From Paramacrobiotus metropolitanus (lineage: Eukaryota > Tardigrada > Eutardigrada > Parachela > Macrobiotidae), in assembly GCF_019649055.1 (NCBI RefSeq), contig NW_026570328.1, positions 124,001 to 188,000 of the forward strand: a DNA stretch of 64,000 bases, written 5' to 3'. A program made the translations under genes and the position numbers. A model generated the notes under the pieces. The model saw nothing but the letters and a program-made list of their open reading frames with translations, had not been told where the DNA came from and did not search any database. Shown here piece by piece: positions 7,401 through 46,303 of the stretch; position 1 is the first letter of the stretch; each line of letters begins with the position of its first letter.

Positions 7401-10400
7401 TGGGCTATGTGGTGGATGTCCATACAGCGTTGCCGGTTATTAATCCACAACCGCTTATTAAGGAGCGCTCGGACTTGACGCTGTGCTTGTTTACTCCGTG
7501 CTCGACGGAAATGATTGATTACGATGCCGGCAAGGTATAAAAATTGTGCAACTACCAACGTGAACTTATAATGTGAACCAATCATTGCACATATACTGCT
7601 GAGGAAAATTTTTTGAAGTCGACGATTCAAGGAGGGTGATCAAATTAACTGCCGAACATTTCAAATATTATAATGCAGGTCCATTTATTTGTTCATTAGC
7701 ATCAATTCCGCTTACGTGAATTAGCTTGCGCATACATAAATTTTTTTGTCCAGGTTGTTTACATCTCCGAAAAGCTACCTGCGCTGATTTTGGAGCGGGA
7801 GCTACTCAATACAGTTTTTGCGGAAATTCCAGGTAAATACTAAAGTAATCATGTAAAATTTCCAATGGTTTTTCAATACGATAAGTAAATTTCCGGTAAA
7901 GCTACTAGACTTATATGGATGCATAACTAATAATTATTCTCTCGAAAACTGCAGGACTTTTCAACCAAAATGTTTATCGCCATTTGAACACAGCAGAAAG
8001 CATGCCGGTGAATTTTGCATCTAACGCATCGACCAACTGGATTGTCACTCAGGAAGATGGTAGCCCGTCGTTTGTGACTGTACCGGCTATCTCCTTGCCG
8101 TATTTTCTGGGCGAAATGCACAAAACTCAAACTATAACCGGGAAAATGTTACTGCAAGAATCCTTCACAGTTTTGGATCGCCCAGCTTGGTTGTCCGTTT
8201 ATGTGGTAGCAGTTGGAAAAGACCCTGTTGTGTATTTCCTGCATAAATCCGGTTTAATTCAAATTGGTGAATATCCAATGTTAGGCAGTCCTTATCAGGC
8301 AAGTATTTCGTTAAATTAACTGAGCTTCCTTATTGTGTTCGATGTTATTCTGTAGCAGCAGTTATAAACTGTCATTATTAAAAACGAACTGCGCTTTGAA
8401 CAATCTTCCAACTTATTATTTTAAAGTGCTTTTTGAATAAGCGGTTGGAAAGGTTAAAATATCATTAAAAGTGGAAATGTGCTTAGTTTTTGTAAAAATG
8501 GCAGCAATTGTTAGTGTAACAAAAATAATAGCCAAAAAACTGTGCTAGTTGTTAGTTGATTTTCTTGTGTTTGTAGGGCAGCAGTTCACAGTTGACATGG
8601 AGCATCCAGCAGTTCCGAAAATATTTGCTATCAAAATACACCTCACTGGAAATTGAAAGGTTTTTTCAAGATGTTAGAACGGCTGTTGATGTTTTCCTTG
8701 CGCACTGCAAATTAGCCGCACGACACAAACAACCCGCGCCTTTGGCCACTGAATCACCACGTGCTGAAGAAAACTGGCCAAGGCTACACCAGATTCATAT
8801 TGCACAGTTTACGATATTCATAACAAAAGCGCTGACCCCTCATGTTGTATCTGTGAGTGCTGTTGCACATTGTTAGTAATACTATCAAACACTAGCAAGC
8901 AGGGGCTATTCGAGACCCCCATCGACCATGTACTATTTTTTTAAACCAAATCTGACAACGTATTAATAATCACCGAATTTTTCTGATCTCAAAGTATTTT
9001 TCAAAATTTTTTTCGGAACAAAAAAATTCTGACTGCCAGCCCCCTAGGTCCCCCACAGTATCATGGGCGGTAGCAATGGGATCAGGGGCAAAAATTTTAT
9101 TTTTATGTTTTTTCACTGTTTCTAGGTAAATCGATAACGCTGAATTCGAATTTGACATTAAAAATGTGATATGGGCTGAGGATAAAAAGATTTACTTAAA
9201 AAAAAAACAAGGATTCTCACAACTGATCTAACAACGATTATCGAAACCCTTCTCAACATAAAGTTCTTCCACACTGCTTATATCAATTTTTTATCATCAA
9301 ATTTGAATTCAGCGTTATTTATTTACCTAGAAACAGTGAAAAAACATAAAAATAAAATTTTTGCCCCTGATCCCATTGCTACCGCCCATGATACTGTGGG
9401 GGACCTAGGGGGCTGGCAGTCAGAATTTTTTTGTTCCGAAAAAAATTTTGAAAAATACTTTCTAGATTAGAAAAATTCGCTAATTAATAATACGTGGTCA
9501 GATTTGGCTTAAAAAAATAGTACATGGTCGATGGGGGTGTCGAATAGCCCCTGCTAGCAAGCAAAAGTAGTGCTAAACATCCGATCACTGACCATATGGG
9601 TGACCTTTCGCATTTGCTACAGGTGGCTCCTTATCCACATACCGACGCACAGTTTCTACCTAACAGTCTTCTAATAGATCTTCTGCAGTTTGATTTTCTG
9701 ACACATGGTTTTCAAGAATCAACAAAGTCTGGTCATTTGGATTTGCTACGAAGTGTCGAATCGGTAAAACCATAAAGTAGCTTGCCATCATCGGAATAAT
9801 GTATTACTCCTGAAATTATTTTTATAAATCACTTTTATATGGTGTCTTATTAGATTGAATGTAAAGAGATTGATCTTGAGAACACTGTCCTGAAACCGGA
9901 CTGCCTTTCCACTGCGGACTTACGGAATGCCTTGGAAATTGTCGAGTTATTTCGCATTTCTGGCAGTGCAGGAATGGAATACATCGCACTACATTCCTTT
10001 ACTCAATCCACATTTACCAAAGCGATTGAAAATTTCCTGACATGTCATCCTAAATCTATGGATTCTGCCGGATGGGATCTGACAGAATTCGATGCCGGTT
10101 ATGACGCGGATACCAGTACTGCCAGGCGCTCGTGTCAGCAAAGTAAAGTTTTGCAACTGTCCAACATATGTCACTCCTAGTTTGACATTACCGTAGTTAA
10201 TTAAATATTAACTGTTTATAAATTATTGACATTTGATCTGTATGCTTACCGTGCAGATTCCCTGTTCCACTCGTTGCTTTTTTCCGTGGCATTTCGTCCC
10301 GCTCTCCAACTGAATCCGCTGTTCCATCCTTTGACGACACTGTACAGCGCCGCTGTGCCATTTGATGTCATGTCCGTCGAAGTTTCGTTCGAACCAGCGG

Positions 10401-12503: not shown

Positions 12504-13345
12504 TCTGATACATAAATGTGATTCCGTCTCTCTACCTTTTCTTCGATGCCTTTTCCAAATGGACCAAAGATTTAAATCTGTCTTGACTTACAAATGCTCA
12601 TTTACAAAGCTTTTTATATTTTTATCACTGCCCGGTAAACTGTAAAGTTACTGCATCCATATCTGTATGTACAAATTATATACATAATAACCTAAATGAG
12701 GTTCGGTAACATACATACTCTGTGCGTGGTAAATTCACAAAAAGGTACAAAACGTTTACAATTCGTAATTTGTTGCAGAATCAGAAACTGGTTAACGTAA
12801 TTGTACTTGCACCACTAAAATTTTTTAATAATAATGAATTTAATGTCTTCTACTACGGGGATAATCCCCTTACGCATAGGACAAGATGGCACGCATACAA
12901 CTGATTACAAACGGACAAAAATAGTAAACTCAAAAATATTCACAAACACCATTCCATTACAATGTTCGCTAAAGCTGTATTAGTGCACATTGGAGTGAAG
13001 AAAGAGACTTGTAACATTCCGCGGGCAATTAAAGTTCAGTACAAAAATTTTCTTGTTAATAAATCATAACACCCATAATTACCGCACATAAAGTAGCGAT
13101 AATAACCATTAACAACCCAAACAAACACCGCTCTGCTCCTCAACTGATAATTTGTTACAGATGCGATAAAATATAAAGCCATGGTCTGTATATATATACA
13201 GACCATGATAAAGCGCTACTATAGAGAAATATAAGAACATAGTACAGCAAAAAATTAACAACAGCTTTTCTCTGTTCCAGTGGTTTGGTTAATCCACCTT
13301 CTCATGATCTGTCGGCTGTTAATGCGGGAAAGGCTGACACGATCG
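12504..13345. other. Convergent intergenic region with a 26-bp perfect palindrome
   Basis: AT-rich sequence between the converging CPED1 and UFC1-Plus3 genes, holding both 3' UTRs and no gene that I recognise. At 13181-13206 is a perfect 26-bp palindrome starting ATGGTCTGTATAT. As RNA it would form a strong hairpin. Confidence 0.5.
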
Positions 13346-15269
13346 TCAACCGATACAAACGTTATTGAATACGTCAAACTCATGCTGAAACCGTTCAGCA
13401 GCTTTTTGGTCACCCGCTGCCATGGCGTCCTTTTTCAGTTTCATTAAATCGCTCTTCATCTCTGGTAGTGAAACCCATCGAGCAGATCCCTGATCGAGTT
13501 TTTCGATATATTTGTCCTTATGTTCGACATCGTCCTTTGTCACTCTGTAACTCTTCCACATTTGCAAATCTGCTGCCTTTTTCTTTAAGACGGAAGAACT
13601 GGGCCAGGGCATACCGCAAAGCTGTAGTTCGCTATCCTTCGGCGCGACACTGGAGACATTCCGCAGGGGCAGCTTCTCCTGCTCGCCGTTAGGCATTCTG
13701 TGGAAACAAAAAAAATTTAAACAGTGATTCAAACCTAAGAAAATTCGTACAAATTTTATCTGTGAACAACCATATTAAATATTAAGAGTCATTAAGAACA
13801 ATATGATATTAATTAGAGCGTAAATTAACAATGGGGTGAGTTTCGGGTGTGACAACAGAAATTAAGCATACAATAATAATGATGACGCATATGCAACTAG
13901 TGCAATGCTCCCTATTGTTTGATGCTACCAGTTAAAGGGCCTTTATTAATAACTTTAGCTGCTTCTCTTATAACGCTTCGATGGTCATATAATTATGCAG
14001 CAATATTTTACCGTTAACATATTCTACTCTAGTTTTTAAATATTTGAGTTTTCGTGTCAACGAAACTGCCCGTGCAAGTGTGAAATTCATTTTAAATATT
14101 TTACCATAGAAGAAACCGAAAACAATAAAAAAACTGTTAATAATCAAAATAAACTTTTTGCTTGAAAAAACTTTTATAAATTCGTTCCTGTAAACCAAGG
14201 CGGGCTAAAGTGCATTTCTAGTAATAATGCTCTAGTAATAATAAATCTACAACTTACTCCACTTGGAGATAGACTGATGTGAAATGCATCACGGGTTTTT
14301 GAATCGGTTTTGGCTGATCCGGAATCTTGGTTCGAATATAAAGAAAAAAGGAATACGGTGACCGAGTCTCCACAACGCTAAGAATCTTCCCGATCTAAAA
14401 GGTGAACACGGACACGGTGAAATCTGTTGACAAATAATAAAGCAAACAATCAAATACGATATCAGGGCTTCTTGACATACCTTGTAAGTCAACTCCGTCT
14501 CCTTTTCTTCATCCCGAATATTGTCACAATATGTCGCGATATCTGATTTGGAATAAGACAATCTAACGAAGCAGCCTTTCACTGCAATCTCAAAAAAAGG
14601 ATAGTAGAGCCAACCAATCAAACGATTTCGACCAATAAAAACATCCTTTAAATCCTGATCATCACTATTCGTTTTCACAAGCAAGTCGTCGGAGGTAGCA
14701 GAGTAGCCACCCGAGAAGCTATCCATGGAGCAGAGTTCAGCACTTTTCCGTTGCATACCGGATAAGCCGTCATCTCCTCCTTCTTTATTCTTAATGACCT
14801 GACGCTCTATGAGCTCCGGAACTTCCACGGCTAGCCAGGGGCCCAACCCCAGCGCTAGTGCGTGAGCAATTCCAAACTTCGGAACGTTTTTGGCCCAAAG
14901 CGGCTTAAAATGATCCGTCAGACAAATCTTCCCTCCTCGATACATCTTCGCTGTCTTCCCATCCAGTTCAGGAATGGCAATCTCGGGCGCAGTGCCAGGA
15001 TATGTTACTGGAATGTCGAATTCGATCTCGAATTCGTACTTAAGCAGCTGATGGATGTACCAACACTTTCCAAACCATTTGGTGCCTTCTTTGTTAGACT
15101 CCAAACGAAACCAGTCGTTGTCCGCAGCTTTATTATTCTCCACGTATTTGATAAGCGACAGCGACTCTTCCTTCATCCGCTGCGGCCATAAATCCTTTTC
15201 CCGAGGTCCTGCATTGGTCATCAACAATGGAATTTGGCTGAGTGTCTTTTTCGTTGCTTCGTCGACCAT
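13346..15269 (-). CDS. Chimeric UFC1-Plus3 (RTF1-like) protein
   Basis: Three exons, 15269-14481, 14394-14258 and 13697-13346, splice in phase to 425 codons. Residues 1 to about 166 are a complete UFC1, the E2 that passes UFM1 to substrates: it starts MVDEATKK, contains [12 protein letters not shown] and keeps the catalytic cysteine in [10 protein letters not shown] (Cys116). Instead of stopping, the frame runs through a short Ser-rich linker into a Plus3 domain: [37 protein letters not shown], a WK element, and a Lys-rich helix with [16 protein letters not shown], in the order found in RTF1 of the Paf1 elongation complex. Plus3 binds phosphorylated SPT5 repeats and nucleic acid. The start was chosen by comparison with the normal UFC1 at 45797; an ATG five codons upstream is also in frame. 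Splice sites and reading frame are intact, so it looks functional. A hAT element lies just upstream. Confidence 0.87.
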
Positions 15270-15529
15270 TTTGTCACCGTGCATGTTCAGGTTCCAGATG
15301 GTAAAACAGAATCTACCAGTTCACTGAGTTCAGTGACAGCCAGCGACACGTGCAAGCGAATACGTAATACGCAGCGTCAATGTAACAAATAACATTATAA
15401 CACACTAAATAAAATATATAATTAAAGTACAGCATGTGAAAGTTGTGAATCAAAAAATAAGTTTTCAGCTTTTAGATAAAGTTTTAAACTTGAAAGGCTC
15501 CGAGATTCCAAGTTCCAACAGCTGTCGAG

Positions 15530-16993
15530 CAGACCTGGGCAGTTACGAGATTTCGACTCATAGTTAGAGTTAAGAGTTAATCGCAGCTCGCGAGTTACGC
15601 TACGAGTTAAGTTAGCCGCAATTACTAGAGTTAACTGGAGTTAACTTCTAATAAAAAAAATCATGATTTTATTAATCAACTTCAAGTAGTCTTTTATGCA
15701 TACCGATATCACTTTTACCAGATTTGAGACACAGACCAATTATTTAATTTTTTTCTTAAATCTGATTTTTAAAATTCATGCTTTTTCTAATGTTCCTTTT
15801 TCATGTTTTTCCTGAGGGAGAGAGCGAGAGACACATTTTTCTTGAGGGAGGAAGATAAAATATAAATGAAACATAAGAAAGAATAAGAACGAAACAAAAG
15901 AATGAAACATATACGTAAAGAAAACATGCTTGTGTTTTGTTCTTATTGTTTTTCCTGCCTGTTTTCTCTCACCCTCAAGAAAAAATCAAACATAAGAAGT
16001 TCTTATCTGACAAAACTCCTCCCTCTTTTTAACCACATAAAAATTCCTGCCTCTCAAAATTCCTCCCTCTTTTTGACCCTGGCTTTTGGGGCCGAGCGCC
16101 GGCAACGCTGAACTTTTTTACTAAGATTTCGCTTCACATGGCTACCGAAGTTAGTGTAGCTGTTTGACAGCGTTGACCGCATTATTACGCTTCCCTAATG
16201 GGCAGGTAGCGAACAATTACAGGTAGCAGGTAGCGCACAGACGATCAGTTCCCGTGTGATTTTGGTGCGGAACATGATTTGTCCTCTCGTTGACAAAATT
16301 TTGCTCCGCAAAAAATTACGTTCTCTGCACGCTGTTAATTGAGCTCAAATTGAACGATCACACTCACTGTCAGCATGGACTCTCCGATGCATATTCATCG
16401 ACCGAAGCGTAGCGAAGGTAGATTAATACATACTTTCGTTGATTTGTGTCCGTTACGAAAGGTCGTTACGAAAGCCATTTCCAACGAGTAACTGGAAGTC
16501 TATGCTTATGTTCCTAAGTCGTTTTGCAAAATAATATAAAATTTCATTATTCAACATATAAAAATAGTATTAAAATACTTAAACAGTTTGTAATATAAAA
16601 TGTAGTATACTGTACTCAAAGGAAATGCTGCGCTCCGGTCTGTCAAATGCACGCCAACGTGCATTTTTCCTAGTCTAGTCAAAGCCTTGGGCGGTTGTAG
16701 TGTACGTCTGCTCGAGAAATTTTGTACAGATACTTTTGTAATTATGGCAATTTATGCGATCCCCGGTTAAAATAACATTTTTTCTGATATTTTCTATTTT
16801 TTAATTTCATTTTTGCTTTCAACTGAAACCTCCAGAGTTACGTTAAACTCGAGTTGCGCTATATTATTTTTGAGTTGCGCTAGAGTTAAGTTTTCATCCT
16901 GGCGAGTTAAGCTTCAAAGTTAAGTTATAACTCGTTAACTCGAAAAAAACTCGCGTTAAGTTAAATAGTTAAAATTAACTGCCCAGGTCTGCA
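15530..16993. mobile_element. hAT-like non-autonomous element with GAGTTA-rich ends
   Basis: A 1.46-kb insertion with ends CAGACCTGGGCAGTTA and TAACTGCCCAGGTCTG. Both subterminal regions are packed with degenerate GAGTTAA/TAACTCG motifs, the kind of short repeats that often serve as transposase binding sites. The flanks carry a near-perfect 8-bp duplication (ctgtcgag at 15522-15529, gtgtcgag at 16994-17001). The other duplication arm has the uninterrupted site at about 45525. No transposase frame survives; internal sequence is low-complexity AT and GA-rich. A 281-bp relative with the same ends lies at 32426-32706. Confidence 0.85.
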
Positions 16994-17439
16994 GTGTCGA
17001 GCATGCTGGCGCACTGGGCGGAGCCGCTGTTACGTCACCGCGAGCAGTAATCATTTCATTGCGTGCGTTTGCACCTTTGCAGTTTTGGCGAAAAAACTTT
17101 TTGTTTGAGTCAGTTTAACTTCTTACAGGTTACGACTTCTTTTCTTAATGCATGATATTTTATGTTTTTAATTTACAGATTATTCTAAACTGTTTTGCGG
17201 TTCGTGTGCATTTTAAGTAGACATTAGTAACCACTTGGGAGTTTGCATGAAGTTTTACAAATCAGAAATACGAGTATTTTTTACAGATCTCTTTTTACAG
17301 ATTTTTTTATTTGTACTTATCAGAAACTATCGACTTTTTTGTCTCTGTTTGGATCTGTTCCGAGTCCCGACTGTGCGCATTGCCATTGCTATCATTTTGA
17401 TTCTTTTGTTTCCGCTATTTCAGTTTCCGCAGTGAGTCG

Positions 17440-17600
17440 GACCAGGCCTGCAGGTGCTGTGAGGTTGATAACATTTGACATTATGGGAACGCCGATGAAA
17501 CCTAAACCAAACACTGGGAAAATGCATCTGTCCGAAGCTAAGAAATTGGCGAATGTGAAGTCATTCCGTGCTTGTGCTCCAGCAGCCAGCGAAACCTGAA
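17440..17600 (+). pseudogene. HDHD3 pseudogene, exon 1 fragment
   Basis: Reads SRTRPAGAVRLITFDIMGT and continues through KLANVKSFRACAPAA, matching the start of the intact HDHD3 gene at 45132-44773. Similarity then jumps to sequence equivalent to 43320 in the intact locus, so about 1.66 kb with the rest of exon 1 and exons 2-3 is deleted. There is no plausible continuation. It lies within duplication arm A. Confidence 0.85.
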
Positions 17601-18939
17601 AATGTTGGATGCAAAATGTCAATTATAAACACTGTGTCTGGTTACTCTGGTAATACATTTCGATAACGATAACGGTTTCCTACACATCGGCGGCAACGGA
17701 GGTTCGCAACTTTGTAGTGGATTTATTAAATGTATAACATCGTTAATTGCATTTGGTCTGTATAAACAGTAGTAACACTACAGATTCCAGAGTCGGTTTT
17801 TTTTATTTTATGATCAGTAGAATGTACAGCATTACAAAAAACGAAAATCAATTCACGAAGTATTTTATGAAGACAGCACCAGACGCAAGTCTTGCGTATG
17901 TATAATACTGTAACAGTGGCCTATCTGGCTACTGTTCTAGTGGGGTGGCGATCAGCCTTTACCACGATTAAACGGCTGTTGGTGTGAAAGGTGGCACGGC
18001 CGGCAACGATGCTGGCCTCTTACAGATGTAACGCAATTACACAGGTGGCTCCGATTGGGATGACACAGGTTCATCCCAAGCGGTCAAACACGACAACGTA
18101 ACTCAAGGCATGTTTAATGACAAGGCGTTCAAGAAACGGAGCAAGGTTGTAAGCAAGGGTTTCAGCAAGAGGCACAATCAAGTAGATGCAAGCTGTAGCA
18201 AGCGAGTGTCAAGACTGAATTCTAGAAATTCATGAGAAGGGAAACTAGCCGGTAAAGTGGACACATTAATTCATAACGCGATGGAATGAATCATAACTGG
18301 GCGGTCTTATCGTTCGTACAAATACTATCGCTACAATACCTAGCTGATTACAGGTTAAATACAGGATAGATGACCATTAATGCAACTCAAAATCACAACG
18401 GACGGTTTGCTTACCATTAGATTGGGCTCCACATTTCATGGAAGAAATATTTGTAAGCACGATTACCCAAACTCACGTGCACATGATAAACCGTAACTAA
18501 AACACGAAGAAACGAATATCGCTTGTCTTAAAACTAGAATTGAAGGAAAAATCGTCCTGCTGGTGCGATGACATCCGCTCGATTCAGAACACGGAAAAAG
18601 GACAAATACATCAGTATGAAGAGCAAGCACATATCCGATACTCGTAGTCGTACACGCGTTATTGTTATGTTGTCGTCGTTCGAGTAGCAGCAGTAGGTCA
18701 GGCTGCATACAAGTACGTTGAGGTAACCACAAGGAAGGAGATCCGGTGAATGCAAAACATAGCTTCCAGGCGGTTGGTCCCAATCTCCAGCATTAATTCT
18801 GAGAATTCCCGATCATTTGGATGCAGTTTACCTACATGGCATTGCTACCGGTCTGATGAGTGAAGCTTTCACCTACGAACGAATCTCTGATTAAATAATT
18901 ACTGCAGCCTGATAAAACAATATATGCTGATATAAAATG

Positions 18940-29276: not shown

Positions 29277-29835
29277 TTAGGCACACATGTACTAGTACAT
29301 GCCGCGCGGTATTCATATTATTGCAAAAAAAAAGTATCTAAACAAAAATATCTATCTTAAGAACGATTAGCCTGTGCTATATGGCGTATCTTTTTGCCGA
29401 AAACACCTTTACTGTGTTATCGTAGGCATGTGCTGTATCAATGGCTAACTTTATTAACTGCTGCAAGCAGGTAATTTCAAACATTATGATTATAATTTTA
29501 ATTCTGCAACGTTAAACAATTTGTTAAGTATCGCTGGTAAAACAACATAGGAGGGTACAAATAAAAGCTGTAAAAAATTTAAAAATTTGAGACTCGCACG
29601 ACTGGTACTGTTTTTCCGCACTTTTTTGGTCAAATCATACTTGGGGGCAAAGTGAAGAAAGAATCAAACAAAATCTTGACAGCTTGATGTGAGCTTTTGC
29701 TGTTTCCTTCATAACAACGTATTAAAAAATTGAGATACCCAAAATACTCGAAGTATGGTCCGCAGTATCCGCCAAAATATACACATATGGCACAGATTGT
29801 TTAGGCGGAAAAACGGCAACGTTAATCTGAGCACG

Positions 29836-30298
29836 TACCTAACGGAACTGTACGGAACGTAATGGAACTCTACGGAACTTGACGGAACCTTACGGAACCT
29901 GACGTAACCTAATGGAACCTGACGTAACCTAATGGAACCTAACGGAACCTAATGGAACTCTACGGAACTTGACGGAACCTTACGGAACCTGACGTAACCT
30001 AATGGAACCTGACGTAACCTAATGGAACCTAACGGAACCTAATGGAACTCTACGGAACCGTACGGAACCTTACGGAACCTGACGTAACCTTATGGAACCT
30101 AACGGAACCTAATGGAACTCAATGGAACTGTACGGAACCTAACGGAACCTAATGGAACTCAATGGAACTGTACGGAACCTGACGGAACCTAACGCAACCT
30201 AATGGAACCCGACGGAACCTAAGGGAACTCTATGGAACTTGACGGAACCTAACGGAACCTAATGGAACTCTACGGAACCTAATGGAACCCGACGGAAT
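29836..30298. repeat. Decanucleotide array, left arm
   Basis: About 46 head-to-tail copies of a 10-bp unit, consensus GGAACCTAAY with variants GGAACTCTAC, GGAACTTGAC and GGAACCTGAC. Higher-order repetition is visible: a block around 29870-29960 recurs around 29950-30040. The complement of this unit forms the right-arm array at about 33480-34985. Confidence 0.92.
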
Positions 30299-30379
30299 TT
30301 GCAGTGATCTAGACCTAACAGATAGTGCACGATTTATTCTAAAGAAAAAAACGGGCATGTGTTTTCGTTACAGTAAACA

Positions 30380-32920: not shown

Positions 32921-33479
32921 CTAAGAAAACAATCAGTAAGGTAATTACGACGTAAGGTAACAATAAGTACTAAAATCTGTTACAAAGAAGACTGAAAAGG
33001 TTAAAAAAATTAGTATTTGCCAGGGCCTAAGTCATAGGTTGACTCAATGTAGCCTACAGTACTGATACTTTAGGCCAGAAAACAGCTGTATTGCACTGAA
33101 TATTAATGAAGCAATACTGTTTTTCTTTGTTGTGCTCTTGGCGAGTTCTTCGAACATTGCGAACGAGCCTTTTATATGCATAAAAATAAATCTCTGTACT
33201 GCAGGACAAATTAATGTAACTGCGCGTTAAACTCATGACAATTTCTAGTGATGTGAGTTATGTACAATTTTGACCTTTTCGTTGTTCGTTCATACCGGTC
33301 GGCCACGCCAAGTTGTCACCATCACTAAAATTCATTTTTAAAGATTAGAAAAAGTTCACCTATTCCAGTTGAAAAAATTTCATTATCCTACTAGCAGCGA
33401 AGGCTTGATTGATCTGCAGTGGTAGCTTTTCCACTTTTCTTTTTGCAGCGGTAGGGTAAAGGTTCCTTAGAGTTACAGT

Positions 33480-34985
33480 TGCCTTCATTTAGGTTCATTA
33501 TGTTCCGCTGAGGTCCATCATGTTTCTTAGATTCACATAAACTTCCGTACAGTTCCTGCAAGAGTTCTATCGGGTTACGTCAAGTTCCGTAGAGTTCCGT
33601 TAGGTTCCGTCGGGTTCCATTAGGTTCAGTCAGGTTCCGTAGAGTTCCGTAGAGTTCCATTAGGTTCCGTCAAGTTCCGTAGAGTTCCCTTAGGTTCCGT
33701 CAGGTTTCATTAGGTTTCGTAGAGTTCCATTAGGTTCCATCAAGTTCCGTAGAGTTCCGTAGAGTTCCATTAGGTTCCGTCAAGTTCCATCGGGTTTCGT
33801 AGAGTTCCATTAGGTTCCGTCAAGTTCCGTAGAGTTCCGTAGAGTTCCATTAGGTTCCGTCAAGTTCCGTAGAGTTCCCTTAGGTTCCGTCAGGTTTCAT
33901 TAGGTTTCGTGGAGTTCCATTAGGTTCCATCAAGTTCCGTCGGGTTCCGTAGAGTTCCAACAGGTTCCGTCAAGTTCCATCGGGTTTCGTAGAGTTCCAT
34001 TAGGTTCCGTCAAGTTCCGTCGGGTTCCGTAGAGTTCCAACAGGTTCCGTCAAGTTCCGTATAGTTCCATTGAGTTCCGTCAAGTTCCATAGAGTTCCGT
34101 TAGGTTCCGTGGTGTTCCATCAGGTTCCGTTAGGTTCCGTACAGTTCCGTACAGTTCCGTAGAGTTCCGTACAGTTCCATTGAGTTCCATCAGGTTCCGT
34201 TAGGTTCCGTTAGGTTCCGTAGAGTTCCATTAAGTTCCATCCAGTTCCGTACAGTTCCATTAGGTTCCGTCAAGCTCCGTAGAGTTCCCTTAGGTTCCGT
34301 CAGGTTTCATTAGGTTTCGTAGAGTTCCGTACAGTTCCGTAGAGTTCCGTACAGTTCCATTGAGTTCCATCAGGTTCCGTTAGGTTCCGTTAGGTTCCGT
34401 AGAGTTCCATTAAGTTCCATCCAGTTCCGTACAGTTCCATTAGGTTCCGTCAAGTTCCGTAGAGTTCCCTTAGGTTCCGTCAGGTTTCATTAGGTTTCGT
34501 AAGGTTCCGTAGAGTTCCGTAGAGTTCCATAAGGTTCCGTCAAGTTCCATTGGGTTCCGTAGAGTTCCATTAGGTTCCATCAAGTTCCGTCGGGTTCCGT
34601 AGAGTTCCGTTAGGTTCCATTGAGTTCCGTCAAGTTCCATAGAGTTCCGTTAGGTTCCGTAGAGTTCCATCAGGTTCCGTTAGGTTCCGTTAGGTTCCGT
34701 ACAGTTCCGTCAAGTTCCATAAGGTTCCGTCAAGTTCCATTGGGTTCCGTAGAGTTCCATTAGGTTCCATCAAGTTCCGTCGGGTTCCGTAGAGTTCCAA
34801 CAGGTTCCGTCAAGTTCCGTCGGGTTCCGTAGAGTTCCGTCAAGTTCCGTAGAGTTCCGTACAGTTCCATTGAGTTCCATTAGGTTCCGTAGAGTTCCGT
34901 ACAGTTCCGTCAAGTTCCGTAGAGTTCCGTACAGTTCCATTGAGTTCCATTAGGTTCCGTAGAGTTCCGTACAGTTCCGTCAGTT
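33480..34985. repeat. Decanucleotide array, right arm
   Basis: About 150 head-to-tail copies of a 10-bp unit, GTTCCGTAGA, GTTCCATTAG, GTTCCGTCAA and similar: the complement of the left-arm array. Higher-order duplication is obvious, e.g. near-identical blocks at about 33640-33740 and 33840-33930, at 34130-34310 and 34320-34500, and at 34840-34910 and 34910-34975. It is three times longer than the left array. It is not coding. Confidence 0.92.
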
Positions 34986-36089
34986 ACAGTAACTATAAAC
35001 TGTCGCGCGTTTTCAACCTAAACAATCAGTGCCATATCTCAAAATATATGCTACACTGATATAATTTGTCTGCACATTAGCTGCCTGTTCCAGCCTGTAG
35101 TACAGTCCGGTAGGACAGCCTGCCGTGTAGTCTAATGTACTGTCCACTGTCCAGTTTGTACTGAAGTCAGATGCGCTGCTTAAGCTCATTTAAACTTAAT
35201 TTTTTACGCTTAGTATGTATCAAGACTTCCGGTTTCTTGTAATCAAGCCTCCGGTTTTTATTTATTTGTGCAAATTATTCTTAATGTAATTAAATATCAA
35301 TAAAAATTTTCAAGATATCCAGATGTGTGCAAGAAAATATACAATATGTCTAGATGTCTTCTGCGTTATGAGTATAATCCGGCGTGTACAGCATTTGTTT
35401 GCACATGTACAGCCTGCAGTACATCCCGTAGTACAACTTGGTGTACAGCTTGTAGTACATCCTGTAGTAGTACATCCTGTAGTAAGTTGACTTAACATAC
35501 ATCCTGCAGTACACCTTAACGTACGGCCTATAGTAAAAACTGCTTTTTTAATGAAATGCATGTGGTACTTTTGCAGTCGTACAGGGTGCTGTCATTTTCT
35601 TGCACAAAATTATAAAATTTTGTAAGATATATTGAGCGTAGTTTGTAATTAATAATTACAGTAATGATATGTAGTGCTTGCACTTATGTATGCCACTCCG
35701 TTTATGCCGCTCTAAAAATTGCAGAACCTCGTCAGCTTATATTGTGCATATTGTCGGTTTTTCATTTTGTCATTTAATGGTAAATGCGATATAGAGTTTT
35801 TTGAATTATGAAATTTTTTTATCGGTAATAATGAAATGCTAGATTTTTATTACGAAAATGATTAATTTATTATTTGTTATTTAACTAGCTGGATGTCACA
35901 AGTAATAAATAATCGGTAAAATTAAAGCAAACAAATGTAATCTGAAGTACTGACCAGCTGCGGGTCTGTTCGCAATTCGGATTGGTTGGGTGTAAGAAAG
36001 CAGGATTGGGTAGACTCTTTATAGGGCGGTTTTTCTTATACTATAGACTCTACGGAGCACCGGGTGCCCAAAATTTTCGCGTCAGTACT

Positions 36090-42200: not shown

Positions 42201-42369
42201 CCTGGTGCCAGCGACAAAATAATCACATATAAATAAACTTTTAGTACTTGCGATTTTTGTGAATTCTCCGGTGTTTATCTGTCGTCTGTGTACTTAAAAC
42301 TGCATCACAGCCAAAACGAAGGACTTGATTTTTATTGCTTATATGACCGATCAGTAAATCCTTCGCAGG
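39225..42369. other. Gene-poor spacer
   Basis: About 3.1 kb of mostly AT-rich sequence. A frame at 39358-39561 and broken coding-like bits at 41360-41590 and 41700-41825 (GMKPPFLWKDAGRIPSAQ and on) are not supported by splice or family evidence; the latter could be relics. A 29-bp hairpin with near-perfect arms (GTAGTGAGACCTGC and complement, one-base loop) lies at 40008-40036. I see no tRNA or other RNA gene. Confidence 0.45.
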
Positions 42370-45300
42370 CCGAAGCTTCATTCATCAGACCGGTAGCAAT
42401 TCTGTACGTACACTACATCCAAATGACCGGGAATTCTCAGAATTAATGCTGGAGATTGGGACCAACCGCCTGGAAGTTATGTTTTGCATTCAGCAAATCT
42501 CCTTCCTTGTGGTTACCTGTATGCAGCCTGATCTACTGCTGCTACTCGAGCGGCGACAACAATAACGCATTCCTATGGATAATAATATTTTTAATGTGCT
42601 CGGTGTAAATTCGATGTGATGGGGAAGTGAAAATCGTGCAAGTGGATGATATGGATGTTATCCCATATTTATTGTTGCAGCATTCTAGGATATTATTGTG
42701 GACGACTTCGAGTATCGGATATGTGCTTGCTCATACTAATGTATTTGTCCTTTCCGTGTTCTGAGTCGAGTGGATGCCATCGCACCTGCAGGACGAATTC
42801 TGCTTCGATATTAGTTTTAAGCCAAACGATATTCATTTTTTCGTGCTTTAATTATGGTTTATAATTTGTACGTGCGTTTGGGTGAATTGTGCTTATATAT
42901 ATTTCCTCCATGAAATGTGGAGCCCAATCTAAGCAAACCGTCCGTTGTGATTTTGAGTTGCATTAATGGTCATCTATCCTGTATTTACCATAATAGCGCA
43001 TTATTAAGTAAAAATTAAGCAGCTACTGTACAATACATACGCAAGACCGGCGCCGCTGCGCCTGGTTCTGTCATTATGGAATACTTCGTGAATTGATTTT
43101 CGTTTTTTGCAATGCTGTACACTCTGCTGATCATAAATAAAAAAACATACTTACGAATCTGTGGTGCTATACAGATCAAATGCAATTAACGATGTTATAC
43201 AACTAATAAGTCCACTACGAACCACCGTTGCCGCCGATGTGTAACAATCACCGGAAACCGTTTTCCAGATGTGTTACTAGATACACTCTTAATAATTGAC
43301 ATTATGCATCCAACAATTTTCAGGTTTTATGCATATTATTCAAGTTCGGGAGAGCAAGGTTGAAAATTCATTCTGATACTCCATGCAAAACCGCAAAAAT
43401 ACTGTTACATCAAACTCTGTTTCATTTCACGCTTGTATCACACCGGAGTAAAAATTATTAACTATTTGATGAAAATGAAACATTCCGATGGCTAGGCAGC
43501 TGATCTGGTGGTGTGCTCCATTTTGCCGGTAAAGTGAGTAGTTCGTCCATAGTGGAAATTACGTCGCTCATCGGTAACTGGACCTGTGCTGCGTCGTTCG
43601 GCTGCTGAACGGGATGAAACCATACCGATCGCCATCCGGCTCGTTGAGCGGCCAAGTAATCCAACTCCAAATTGTCGCCCACGTGTAATGCGTCAGCGGG
43701 ATCACGCAAACCAGCGCGGTGCAAAGCAATATCAAATATCTGCAACCGTAATAGCACGGTCACACCGATGATAACCGATCGATTCCACTCTTATAGATAA
43801 CCAACAGGTAAGTACAGTATGCAAGAGTATACGAGTACATTTGCTTTACTTACAATTAGAGAAAACGCGTTCTCGGTGCACAGAAATGGGAAAAAAGCGT
43901 GCACAACTGCGATAATACGTATTAACAGCAAGCTTAACGCAAATCAACAAAGTTTTAAAAATAGTGAAACTGTCAAATATTTTCGCACGAAGTATGACAA
44001 AATAATAAGAGCGCTATACTTATTTTCGTTCAGCTGTACTTTCCACAAGTAGCCTGCCTGCTCCAGTAAATATTTAGTACCGTCACACGCAGTGACATTA
44101 AACAATTTCAAGCAGGCTCATTAATTATGGGAAAAATGTATATCTTTATAGAATGTGCATTTGAAAATGTACTTACATGAAAAATATATGTACATTTCAT
44201 GTAGCTTAAAAGCAGCCTGTTCGCTTTCAGCAAAAGAATATTACAGTGGAATATAGCCGATAACCGATAACGAAATCACAAAAACAAAGTATTCTAGGAA
44301 TAAAACTGGCGAAGGATTCAGGCCTCAGGGCTTCCATCCGTCATGTAAAGTAAGTTTGTAAAAGATACCTCGGCATCTGGCTTGCACACGCCAACTTCCT
44401 TGGAGATTACGATGAAACTGAACACATCAGCAATTTTGAAACCGTTCAAAATCTGGATTAGCCGCTCATCGAAATTACTGATCACGCCAAGGGTAAAACG
44501 CTGCCGTAGCTTTTTCAGAACATCCGCATCTCCTTTAGAAAAAGCCCACGATCTCGAATGGCTGAAGGTCTGAAATAATAAGTAACAATCCAAAATATAA
44601 ATGTCTATGACTGTCGGCAAAAATAACTGCAAACAGTAAGTAAATGAATCGATAAGTGCTACAGCGCCAAAAAACATGGCAATGCATAAAAGTACTGAAC
44701 TGGAAACAAAAAAAAACAGCTCAGACAAATTACAGCTATATAAATTTCACCAAAATCTCAGAAAACACGTACTCCGAAAAGATTGTCCGCTAACACAGGT
44801 AGGTAAAATTCGGCCTCTCTTCGCATGCCACCTTGCCCAGTTCGTTCCAACGCACCCAGAAAAGTGTCTCGCACGACGTTTCGCCACCATGCCATGGAGG
44901 TGAAGCCTTCGTTGAATCCGAAGTTAGGATGGTTAGCCCAATGGTGTTTAAAGGCTTTGCGAAATTCCATGTCGAGAGCAGCTGGTGTACATGCACGGAA
45001 TGACTTAACATTCTCCAATTTCTTGGCTTCGGTCAGATACATTTTCCCAATGTTTAGTTTAGGCTTCATCAGCGTTCCCATGATGTCAAATGTGATCAAC
45101 CTCACAGCACCTGTAGGCCTGGTCCGACTCATTACGGAAATTGAAACAGCGGAAACGAAAGAATCAAATTATAGCAATGGCAATATGTACAGTCGGAACA
45201 GATCCAAACACAGACACAAAAGTGACAAAACTAAAAAAATATATTTCTCATTATTATTTCTGATTTGCAAACCGTAAACCTTCACGCGAAGTGGTTACTA

Positions 45301-46297
45301 ATGTTCACTTAAACCGCACGCGAACCGCAAAGCAGTTCACGATAACTTGTAAATACATAAATATTATGCATTAAAAATAAGTAGTCGTAACTCTTAAGTA
45401 GGCAAACTGACTCAAATAAAAAAGTTTTTTTTCGCCAAAACGGCAAAGCTGCATGTGCACACACCGAAGTGATTAACCCGTCGCGGTGACGTAACAGCGG
45501 CTCCGCCCAGTGCGCCAGCACACTCGACAGCCGAGACGTGTTGGAATCTCAGAGTCTTTAAAAGCTACTTTCAGCTTTCTCGTTAGAATTATGAAAAGCT
45601 GAAAACTTATTTTTTGATTCGCGTGCTGTACTTAAATTAAATTGTTTATTGTGTTATTTGTTACATTGACGCTGGACAGACTACGTGCAATATTACGTAT
45701 TCGCTTGCACGCGTCGCTCGCTGTCACTGAACTACCCGATTGTGTTTTTACCATCTGGAACGGGGAACCTGAACGCGTACGCCATACGGTGACAAAATGG
45801 TCGACGAAGCAACTAAAAAGACCCTCAGCCAAATTCCATTGTTAAAGACCAATGCAGGACCTCGGGAAAAGGATTTATGGCCACAGCGGATGAAGGAAGA
45901 GTTGCTATCGCTTATCAAATACGTGGAGAATAATAAAGCTGCGGACAACGACTGGTTTCGTTTGGAGTCTAACAAAGAAGGCACCAAATGGTTTGGAAAG
46001 TGCTGGTACATCCATCAGCTGCTTAAATACGAATTCGAGATCGAATTTGACATTCCAGTAACTTATCCTGGCACTGCGCCCGAGATTGCCATTCCTGAGC
46101 TGGATGGGAAGACAGCGAAAATGTATCGCGGAGGGAAGATTTGTCTGACGGATCATTTTAAGCCGCTTTGGGCCAAGAACGTTCCAAAGTTTGGCATTGC
46201 TCACGCACTGGCGCTGGGATTGGGCCCCTGGCTAGCCGTGGAAGTTCCGGAACTCATAGAGCGTCAGGTCATCAAGAATAAAGAAGGAGGAGATGCG
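42370..46297 (+). repeat. Segmental duplication, arm B (inverted partner of 14771-18885)
   Basis: Contains the intact versions of what arm A carries: a distal block (42370-42960), HDHD3 (43458-45132, minus) and UFC1 (45797-46303, plus). It lacks the 1.46-kb hAT-like element, showing the empty site near 45525 (CTCGACAGCCGAGACG), and retains the 1.66 kb of HDHD3 that arm A lost. Homology to arm A ends at the UFC1 stop codon. Confidence 0.85.
43458..45132 (-). CDS. HDHD3: HAD-like hydrolase, HDHD3 family
   Basis: Exons 45132-44773, 44569-44369 and 43739-43458 join in phase (360+201+282 bp) to a 280-aa protein, near the usual HDHD3 length. HAD motifs in order: RLITFDIMGTLM (motif I, with Gly where the second Asp of classical DxDxT phosphatases would be, as in many of this family), LGVISNFDERL (motif II), SKEVGVCKPDAE (motif III Lys) and ADALHVGDNLELDYLAA (motif IV). 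FGFNEGFTSMAWW belongs to the cap. The physiological substrate of HDHD3 is not established. It is divergent to UFC1, about 660 bp between starts. A truncated copy of exon 1 is at 17440. Confidence 0.9.
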
Positions 46298-46303
46298 GAA
46301 TAG
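45797..46303 (+). CDS. UFC1: UFM1-conjugating enzyme 1
   Basis: A single-exon frame of 168 aa, one residue longer than human UFC1. It starts [20 protein letters not shown], contains [12 protein letters not shown] and [16 protein letters not shown], and has the catalytic cysteine in [10 protein letters not shown] (Cys116), then [16 protein letters not shown] near the end. UFC1 accepts UFM1 from UBA5 and works with the UFL1 ligase complex on ER-bound ribosomes and other targets. The lack of introns in an otherwise intron-rich window is notable and might reflect an old retrocopy; the chimeric copy at 13346-15269 also lacks introns in this part. This locus ends in a normal stop, so it is the likely parent of the chimera. 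Confidence 0.95.

Follow-up and report, generated by a model that had tools for sequence, protein, structure and literature searches.

The window analysed here is a 64-kb stretch (64,000 nucleotides) of contig NW_026570328.1 from the tardigrade Paramacrobiotus metropolitanus. Its minus strand carries a gene, referred to here as UFC1-Plus3, in which UFC1, the conjugating enzyme (E2) for UFM1, is joined in frame to a Plus3 domain of the RTF1 type. The gene consists of three exons (15269-14481, 14394-14258 and 13697-13346) that together comprise 1278 nt, or 425 amino acids plus the stop. Both introns have GT-AG splice sites (AAG/GTATGT...TTTTAG/AT for intron 1 and GGA/GTAAGT...CCACAG/AA for intron 2), and the three-exon gene of 425 codons plus stop proposed in an initial annotation of this DNA is borne out. 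Searches beyond the window covered the 169.8-Mb genome assembly (533 contigs), in which loci are named by contig (C26, C108, C10 and C157), C108 being the contig of the window; the genome holds many CAHS genes, which are specific to eutardigrades. The elements of the locus are listed here, GKAP-Plus3 and ABCF2-Plus3 being other Plus3 chimeras of the same genome.

Exon 1, 14481..15269, minus strand: codons 1-166 hold the complete UFC1 domain; the Ser-rich linker and the initial third of Plus3 follow.
Exon 2, 14258..14394, minus strand: Plus3 domain; intron position common to RTF1, GKAP-Plus3 and ABCF2-Plus3.
Exon 3, 13346..13697, minus strand: Plus3 ends here and is followed by a helical tail of the RTF1 type; the stop codon TGA occupies 13346-13348.
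UFC1 moiety, 14771..15269, minus strand: duplicate of the stand-alone UFC1 at 45797-46295; TAK 106-108 and C116 intact; K17M and L36S.
Junction, 14771, minus strand: the duplicated UFC1 block ends and the Plus3-gene segment begins; linker alignable to that of GKAP-Plus3.
Dispersed repeat, 13814..14019, strand not assigned: located in intron 2; present in some 30 copies or more in the genome.

Both halves of the predicted protein are recognized by Pfam. The UFC1 domain (PF08694) spans residues 6-160 and covers 155/155 model positions (E 3.7e-83, above cut-off), while Plus-3 (PF03126) spans residues 206-334 and covers model positions 1-102/109 at 45.9 bits (E 9.2e-12; Pfam cut-off 27 bits). The UFC1 half aligns without gaps to human UFC1 over 163 residues and keeps TAK 106-108, C116 and D119; the claim of a complete UFC1 with its catalytic cysteine, followed by a Plus3 domain, is confirmed by these comparisons. 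K108 is needed for UFC1 activity in vitro, and roles have been assigned to the catalytic residues (PMC9627666). The fusion therefore shares with UFC1 proteins the complete domain, the TAK motif, C116 and D119, but whereas a normal UFC1 has about 167 amino acids and stands alone, the fusion has 425, with about 259 extra C-terminal residues that include Plus3. At the 3′ end of the gene, a 77-bp piece (13272-13348) matches, at 87% identity, a portion of the terminal repeats (475 bp) of a C10 retroelement. Since this piece begins exactly at the stop codon, a long terminal repeat remnant may supply both the stop and the 3′ untranslated region of the fusion gene. A perfect 28-bp palindrome lies at 13180-13207, within the presumed 3′ untranslated region.

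A second, stand-alone UFC1, which the initial annotation had overlooked along with the other Plus3 chimeras of the genome, is located in the same window, at 45797-46303 on the plus strand. The two copies belong to an inverted segmental duplication (14771-18891 versus 42350-46295) that covers UFC1 together with its 5′ flank and a portion of a divergent gene labelled HDHD3-like by eye from its sequence.

Stand-alone UFC1, 45797..46303, plus strand: intronless, 168 aa, unfused parental-type copy.
Fusion-side arm, 14771..18891, minus strand: blocks 14771-15473, 16995-17586, 17592-17912, 18356-18655 and 18664-18891.
Other arm of the inverted duplication, 42350..46295, plus strand: stand-alone UFC1 side.
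HDHD3-like first-exon fragment, 17435..17596, plus strand: in the fusion-side arm; start codon now GTG, premature stop, rest missing.
HDHD3-like HAD hydrolase gene, 43461-45168, minus strand: in divergent orientation to the stand-alone UFC1; first exon carried along in the duplication.

The block nearest the fusion (14771-15473 versus 45594-46295) shows 87% DNA identity. The homology of the arms ends at 14771, just ahead of the stop codon of the unfused UFC1, where the sequences diverge (...GGAGATG/CGGAATAG versus ...GGAGATG/ACGGCTTATCC), and the breakpoint of the duplication is therefore the fusion point. Although both UFC1 copies are intronless, an origin as a retrocopy is not supported, as homology runs through the 5′ flank and the upstream neighbour. 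The join is read from the assembly and inverted repeats can be misjoined, so an assembly artefact, or a dead pseudogene, has to be considered; the DNA of the arms, however, differs by 13%, more than haplotypes or a collapsed repeat would show, and the in-frame join, the splice sites, the absence of stops from the frame and the small number of non-synonymous changes point instead to a maintained gene, which makes an artefact or pseudogene very improbable.

Comparison of the two UFC1 copies over 166 codons gives 19 synonymous and 2 non-synonymous differences (K17M and L36S), and the proteins are 99% identical. Neutral drift of both copies would be expected to yield about 69 non-synonymous differences, and drift confined to the fusion copy, over half the divergence, about 35. 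The initial annotation had called for dN/dS of both halves of the gene, and for the UFC1 half it is 0.025 between the copies (dS 0.20, dN 0.005). The HDHD3-like fragment within the duplicated block serves as an internal control for decay: because few non-synonymous changes accumulated in UFC1 while the neighbouring HDHD3-like copy decayed, the UFC1 moiety can be said to have been kept by selection.

The 259 codons after the junction contain no stop and no frameshift. In the flank of the duplicate, which gives the neutral distance, substitutions amount to 12.6%, with 6 indel events per 22 substitutions. In simulations of neutral change with indels at 0.1-0.2 per substitution, the probability that a 259-codon frame stays intact was at most 2.5e-4 at 0.1 substitutions per site and 0.001-0.015 at 0.05 substitutions per site. 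These values take duplication and fusion as a single event, an assumption that the coincident breakpoint makes more likely without proving it. Two points weigh against the view of a gene maintained since that event: the decay argument is weaker if the UFC1 duplicate joined Plus3 later than the duplication, and constraint on the Plus3 half after the join is deduced from the intact frame rather than from an orthologue. With these points included, the DNA shows a real fusion, which is very probably a gene under selection, and we consider it likely that UFC1-Plus3 is a genuine chimeric gene that arose through the duplication.

The Plus3 half has a different history. A separate full-length RTF1, for which the initial annotation had suggested a search, is present at C26:714.9-718.0k, complete with Plus3 and an HMD-like region (judged by eye). 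A DNA search of the genome found no second copy of the exons in 12900-14771, and the closest protein to the Plus3 of the window, encoded by a gene at C26:766k, is only about 40% identical; a recent RTF1 duplication as the source of Plus3 is ruled out on both counts. The C26:766k gene aligns in frame with the fusion from the junction on, through the Ser-rich linker, Plus3 and the tail, and both intron positions are common to the two genes, so the frame that follows UFC1 is not there by chance. The Ser-rich linker of the fusion also resembles the acidic Ser-rich stretch that precedes Plus3 in tardigrade RTF1.

A profile built from four Plus3 copies of the genome matched human RTF1 with E 3e-37 (best chain) and matched residues 360-559 of the full-length human RTF1 chain with E 8e-37; the segment therefore corresponds to Plus3 and the following helical region, without the HMD or the RTF1 C-terminus. 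The fusion ends near human RTF1 residue 540, where RTF1 goes on. Compared with RTF1, the Plus3 domain (PF03126) and the post-Plus3 helical tail are alike, and two intron positions are common with tardigrade RTF1. UFC1, however, takes the place of the N-terminal HMD, by which RTF1 stimulates H2B ubiquitylation, the RTF1 C-terminal region that binds the PAF1 complex and RNA polymerase II (Pol II) is absent, and Asn occupies the position of human F441. Judged by its sequence, the Plus3 half is an old, diverged RTF1 paralogue. The description of a young chimeric gene thus holds for the UFC1 half, a DNA duplicate with dS of about 0.20 whose duplication ends at the fusion point, but not for the Plus3 half.

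The genome contains at least five Plus3 chimeric genes with four partners (UFC1, DLGAP/GKAP, ABCF2 and ZFAND), the unfused parents of which are also present, and the notion that UFC1-Plus3 is unique in the genome was rejected once the GKAP-, ABCF2- (two) and ZFAND-Plus3 genes were found. A Pfam family search alone undercounts Plus3, as the copies at C108:362k and C26:178k were recovered by protein queries only.

GKAP/DLGAP-Plus3, C26:765-768k: 411 aa, N-terminal GKAP/DLGAP domain PF03359 (Pfam).
ABCF2-Plus3 copy 1, C26:1045.9-1049.7k: N-terminal half of ABCF2 joins Plus3 via an intron.
ABCF2-Plus3 copy 2, C108:360-364.3k, on the window's own contig: all three Plus3 exons.
ZFAND-Plus3, about C26:176.5-178.7k: 456 aa, A20/AN1 zinc finger (ZFAND5/6-type) in frame via an intron into Plus3.

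GKAP/DLGAP-Plus3, the C26:766k gene introduced above, is the nearest counterpart of the fusion: the two Plus3 domains are sisters (98/99), their Ser-rich linkers can be aligned, their exon structure is the same and in each the 5′ part was duplicated from an intact gene, although the partner there is a DLGAP (GKAP) fragment and not UFC1. Its GKAP part has 92% DNA identity, intron included, to an intact DLGAP-type gene at C26:560k, and this homology stops inside a coding exon. In the ABCF2 parent type at C157:115k, the second half of ABCF2 follows the first. ZFAND-Plus3 has a degenerate AN1 and canonical splice sites throughout, with zf-A20 and Plus-3 both above the Pfam cut-off; a canonical ZFAND parent lies at C26:90k. 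In the tree, UFC1- and GKAP-Plus3 group with 98/99 and ABCF2- and ZFAND-Plus3 with 100/100, the ZFAND-Plus3 branch being very long. Two groupings and four partners imply that joining took place at least four times, on two lineages of Plus3. As the gene models and parent copies show, Plus3 and its tail have thus been put behind the 5′ parts of other genes recurrently, at least four separate times.

Between the two ABCF2-Plus3 copies, dN/dS in the Plus3 exons is 0.15, 0.21 and 0.31 (dS about 0.9-1.3). These low ratios place a Plus3 chimera of this genome under purifying selection, provided that a single fusion took place before the copies split. The C26 ABCF2-Plus3 copy has an altered ABC signature and Walker B (FSKGW and DDP), and decayed Plus3 tail fragments adjoin it.

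These chimeras also bear on whether the locus might make two separate products, with transcripts of the fused UFC1 copy (UFC1a) ending early or splicing at GTATGC after 14758, and a Plus3 protein starting at M14756 or M14726. ATGs and a GT-type donor do lie directly past the junction. No stop codon separates the halves, however, the original 5′ end of the Plus3 gene is absent, a promoter would have to sit within the UFC1 coding sequence, and GKAP-, ABCF2- and ZFAND-Plus3 are likewise in-frame fusions; two products are for these reasons improbable.

The chimeric structure is seen in the DNA, and the order of events can be proposed as follows. An inverted segmental duplication would have moved UFC1 and its 5′ flank, shared with the divergent HDHD3-like gene, by about 31 kb. 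Its breakpoint, a codon or two ahead of the UFC1 stop, would have fallen, in frame, within the Ser-rich linker of an RTF1-derived Plus3 gene that already existed and had long diverged, the UFC1 segment replacing that gene's own N-terminus and promoter. The fusion has the attributes of a chimeric gene formed by partial duplication, namely a 5′ part from an intact parent, a 3′ part from another gene and an in-frame junction. The predicted product is a UFM1 E2 that would be catalytically competent and carry a Plus3 module at its C-terminus. Since a normal UFC1 remains, the fused one was free to diverge. With the stand-alone copy (UFC1b) intact, ordinary UFMylation does not depend on the fused copy, but the E2 core of the latter has hardly changed. 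The simplest reading is therefore an E2 that is active and has gained a new address at its C-terminus.

The Plus3 domain of RTF1 binds phosphorylated SPT5 (PMC10659198), and the Plus3 tail of the fusion would by this means place the E2 at Pol II elongation complexes. A UFC1 takes over UFM1 from UBA5 and acts together with UFL1/UFBP1; genes for UFM1 and UFL1 are present in the genome. In human RTF1, phospho-SPT5 is reportedly contacted by R366 and R388, two basic residues that engage phosphothreonine, and by the aromatic F441, a result attributed to Wier et al. in 2013. The fusion has Arg at the R366 and R388 equivalents. Against Pol II targeting stand the Asn at the F441 equivalent and a tail without the RTF1 C-terminal region. 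As both Arg are kept and F441 is replaced, phospho-SPT5 binding may be kept, altered or lost. Targeting of the fusion to Pol II through Plus3, which the initial annotation had suggested, is possible but doubtful.

Alternatively, the fusion protein may be made while its Plus3 stays off Pol II, with UFC1 mainly a donor of promoter and N-terminus, or with Plus3 serving another ligand. This explanation, which contests the targeting step and leaves the chimeric origin as it is, has a substantial chance of being correct, somewhat short of even. Four unrelated Plus3 partners fit the capture of promoters or 5′ ends combined with survival bias, and the F441 position, the third of the reported contacts, is N/D in UFC1-, GKAP- and ABCF2-Plus3 and F in tardigrade RTF1. 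On the other hand, the UFC1 half retains its catalytic residues and is strongly constrained, and the R366 and R388 equivalents are retained.

A precedent for a tethered E2 comes from RTF1 itself, which recruits the ubiquitin E2 Rad6 through its HMD, according to literature listed in PMC12572195. In both cases an E2 of the ubiquitin family would be brought to the elongation complex through RTF1 or a part of it. Rad6, however, is a ubiquitin E2 and its recruitment is non-covalent, whereas the fusion would join a UFM1 E2 covalently to Plus3, as a hard-wired analogue. The full proposal, in which Plus3 and its tail are a recurrently captured C-terminal module in this genome and UFC1-Plus3 is a dedicated SPT5/Pol II-tethered E2 that conjugates UFM1 co-transcriptionally to elongation or chromatin proteins, we regard as rather unlikely in its entirety.

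Elsewhere in the window, a long array of diverged tandem repeats occupies 33460-35040, with a related block inverted at 29785-30301, and a near-palindromic inverted repeat, some 670 bp long, lies at 8892-9561 and matches its own reverse complement at 85% identity.

A full-text literature search found no paper with both UFC1 and Plus3, in agreement with the initial annotation, which knew of no described UFC1-Plus3 protein; literature searches for UFC1 with tardigrades and for UFMylation with Paf1 returned nothing relevant. The part of a 304-proteome survey of elongation factors that we consulted mentions no Plus3 fusion (PMC13289920). Chimeras formed by partial duplication are already known, whereas neither the pairing of UFC1 with Plus3 nor a series of Plus3 chimeras in a single animal appears to have been described within the searchable literature.

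In summary, UFC1-Plus3, if expressed, would be a natural E2-Plus3 fusion with which UFM1 conjugation on the transcription machinery could be tested. The Plus3 chimeras, at least five in number and with four different partners, whose unfused parents survive, make up a rare, datable series of domain fusions in one animal genome, and this series can be used to study how new multidomain genes start.
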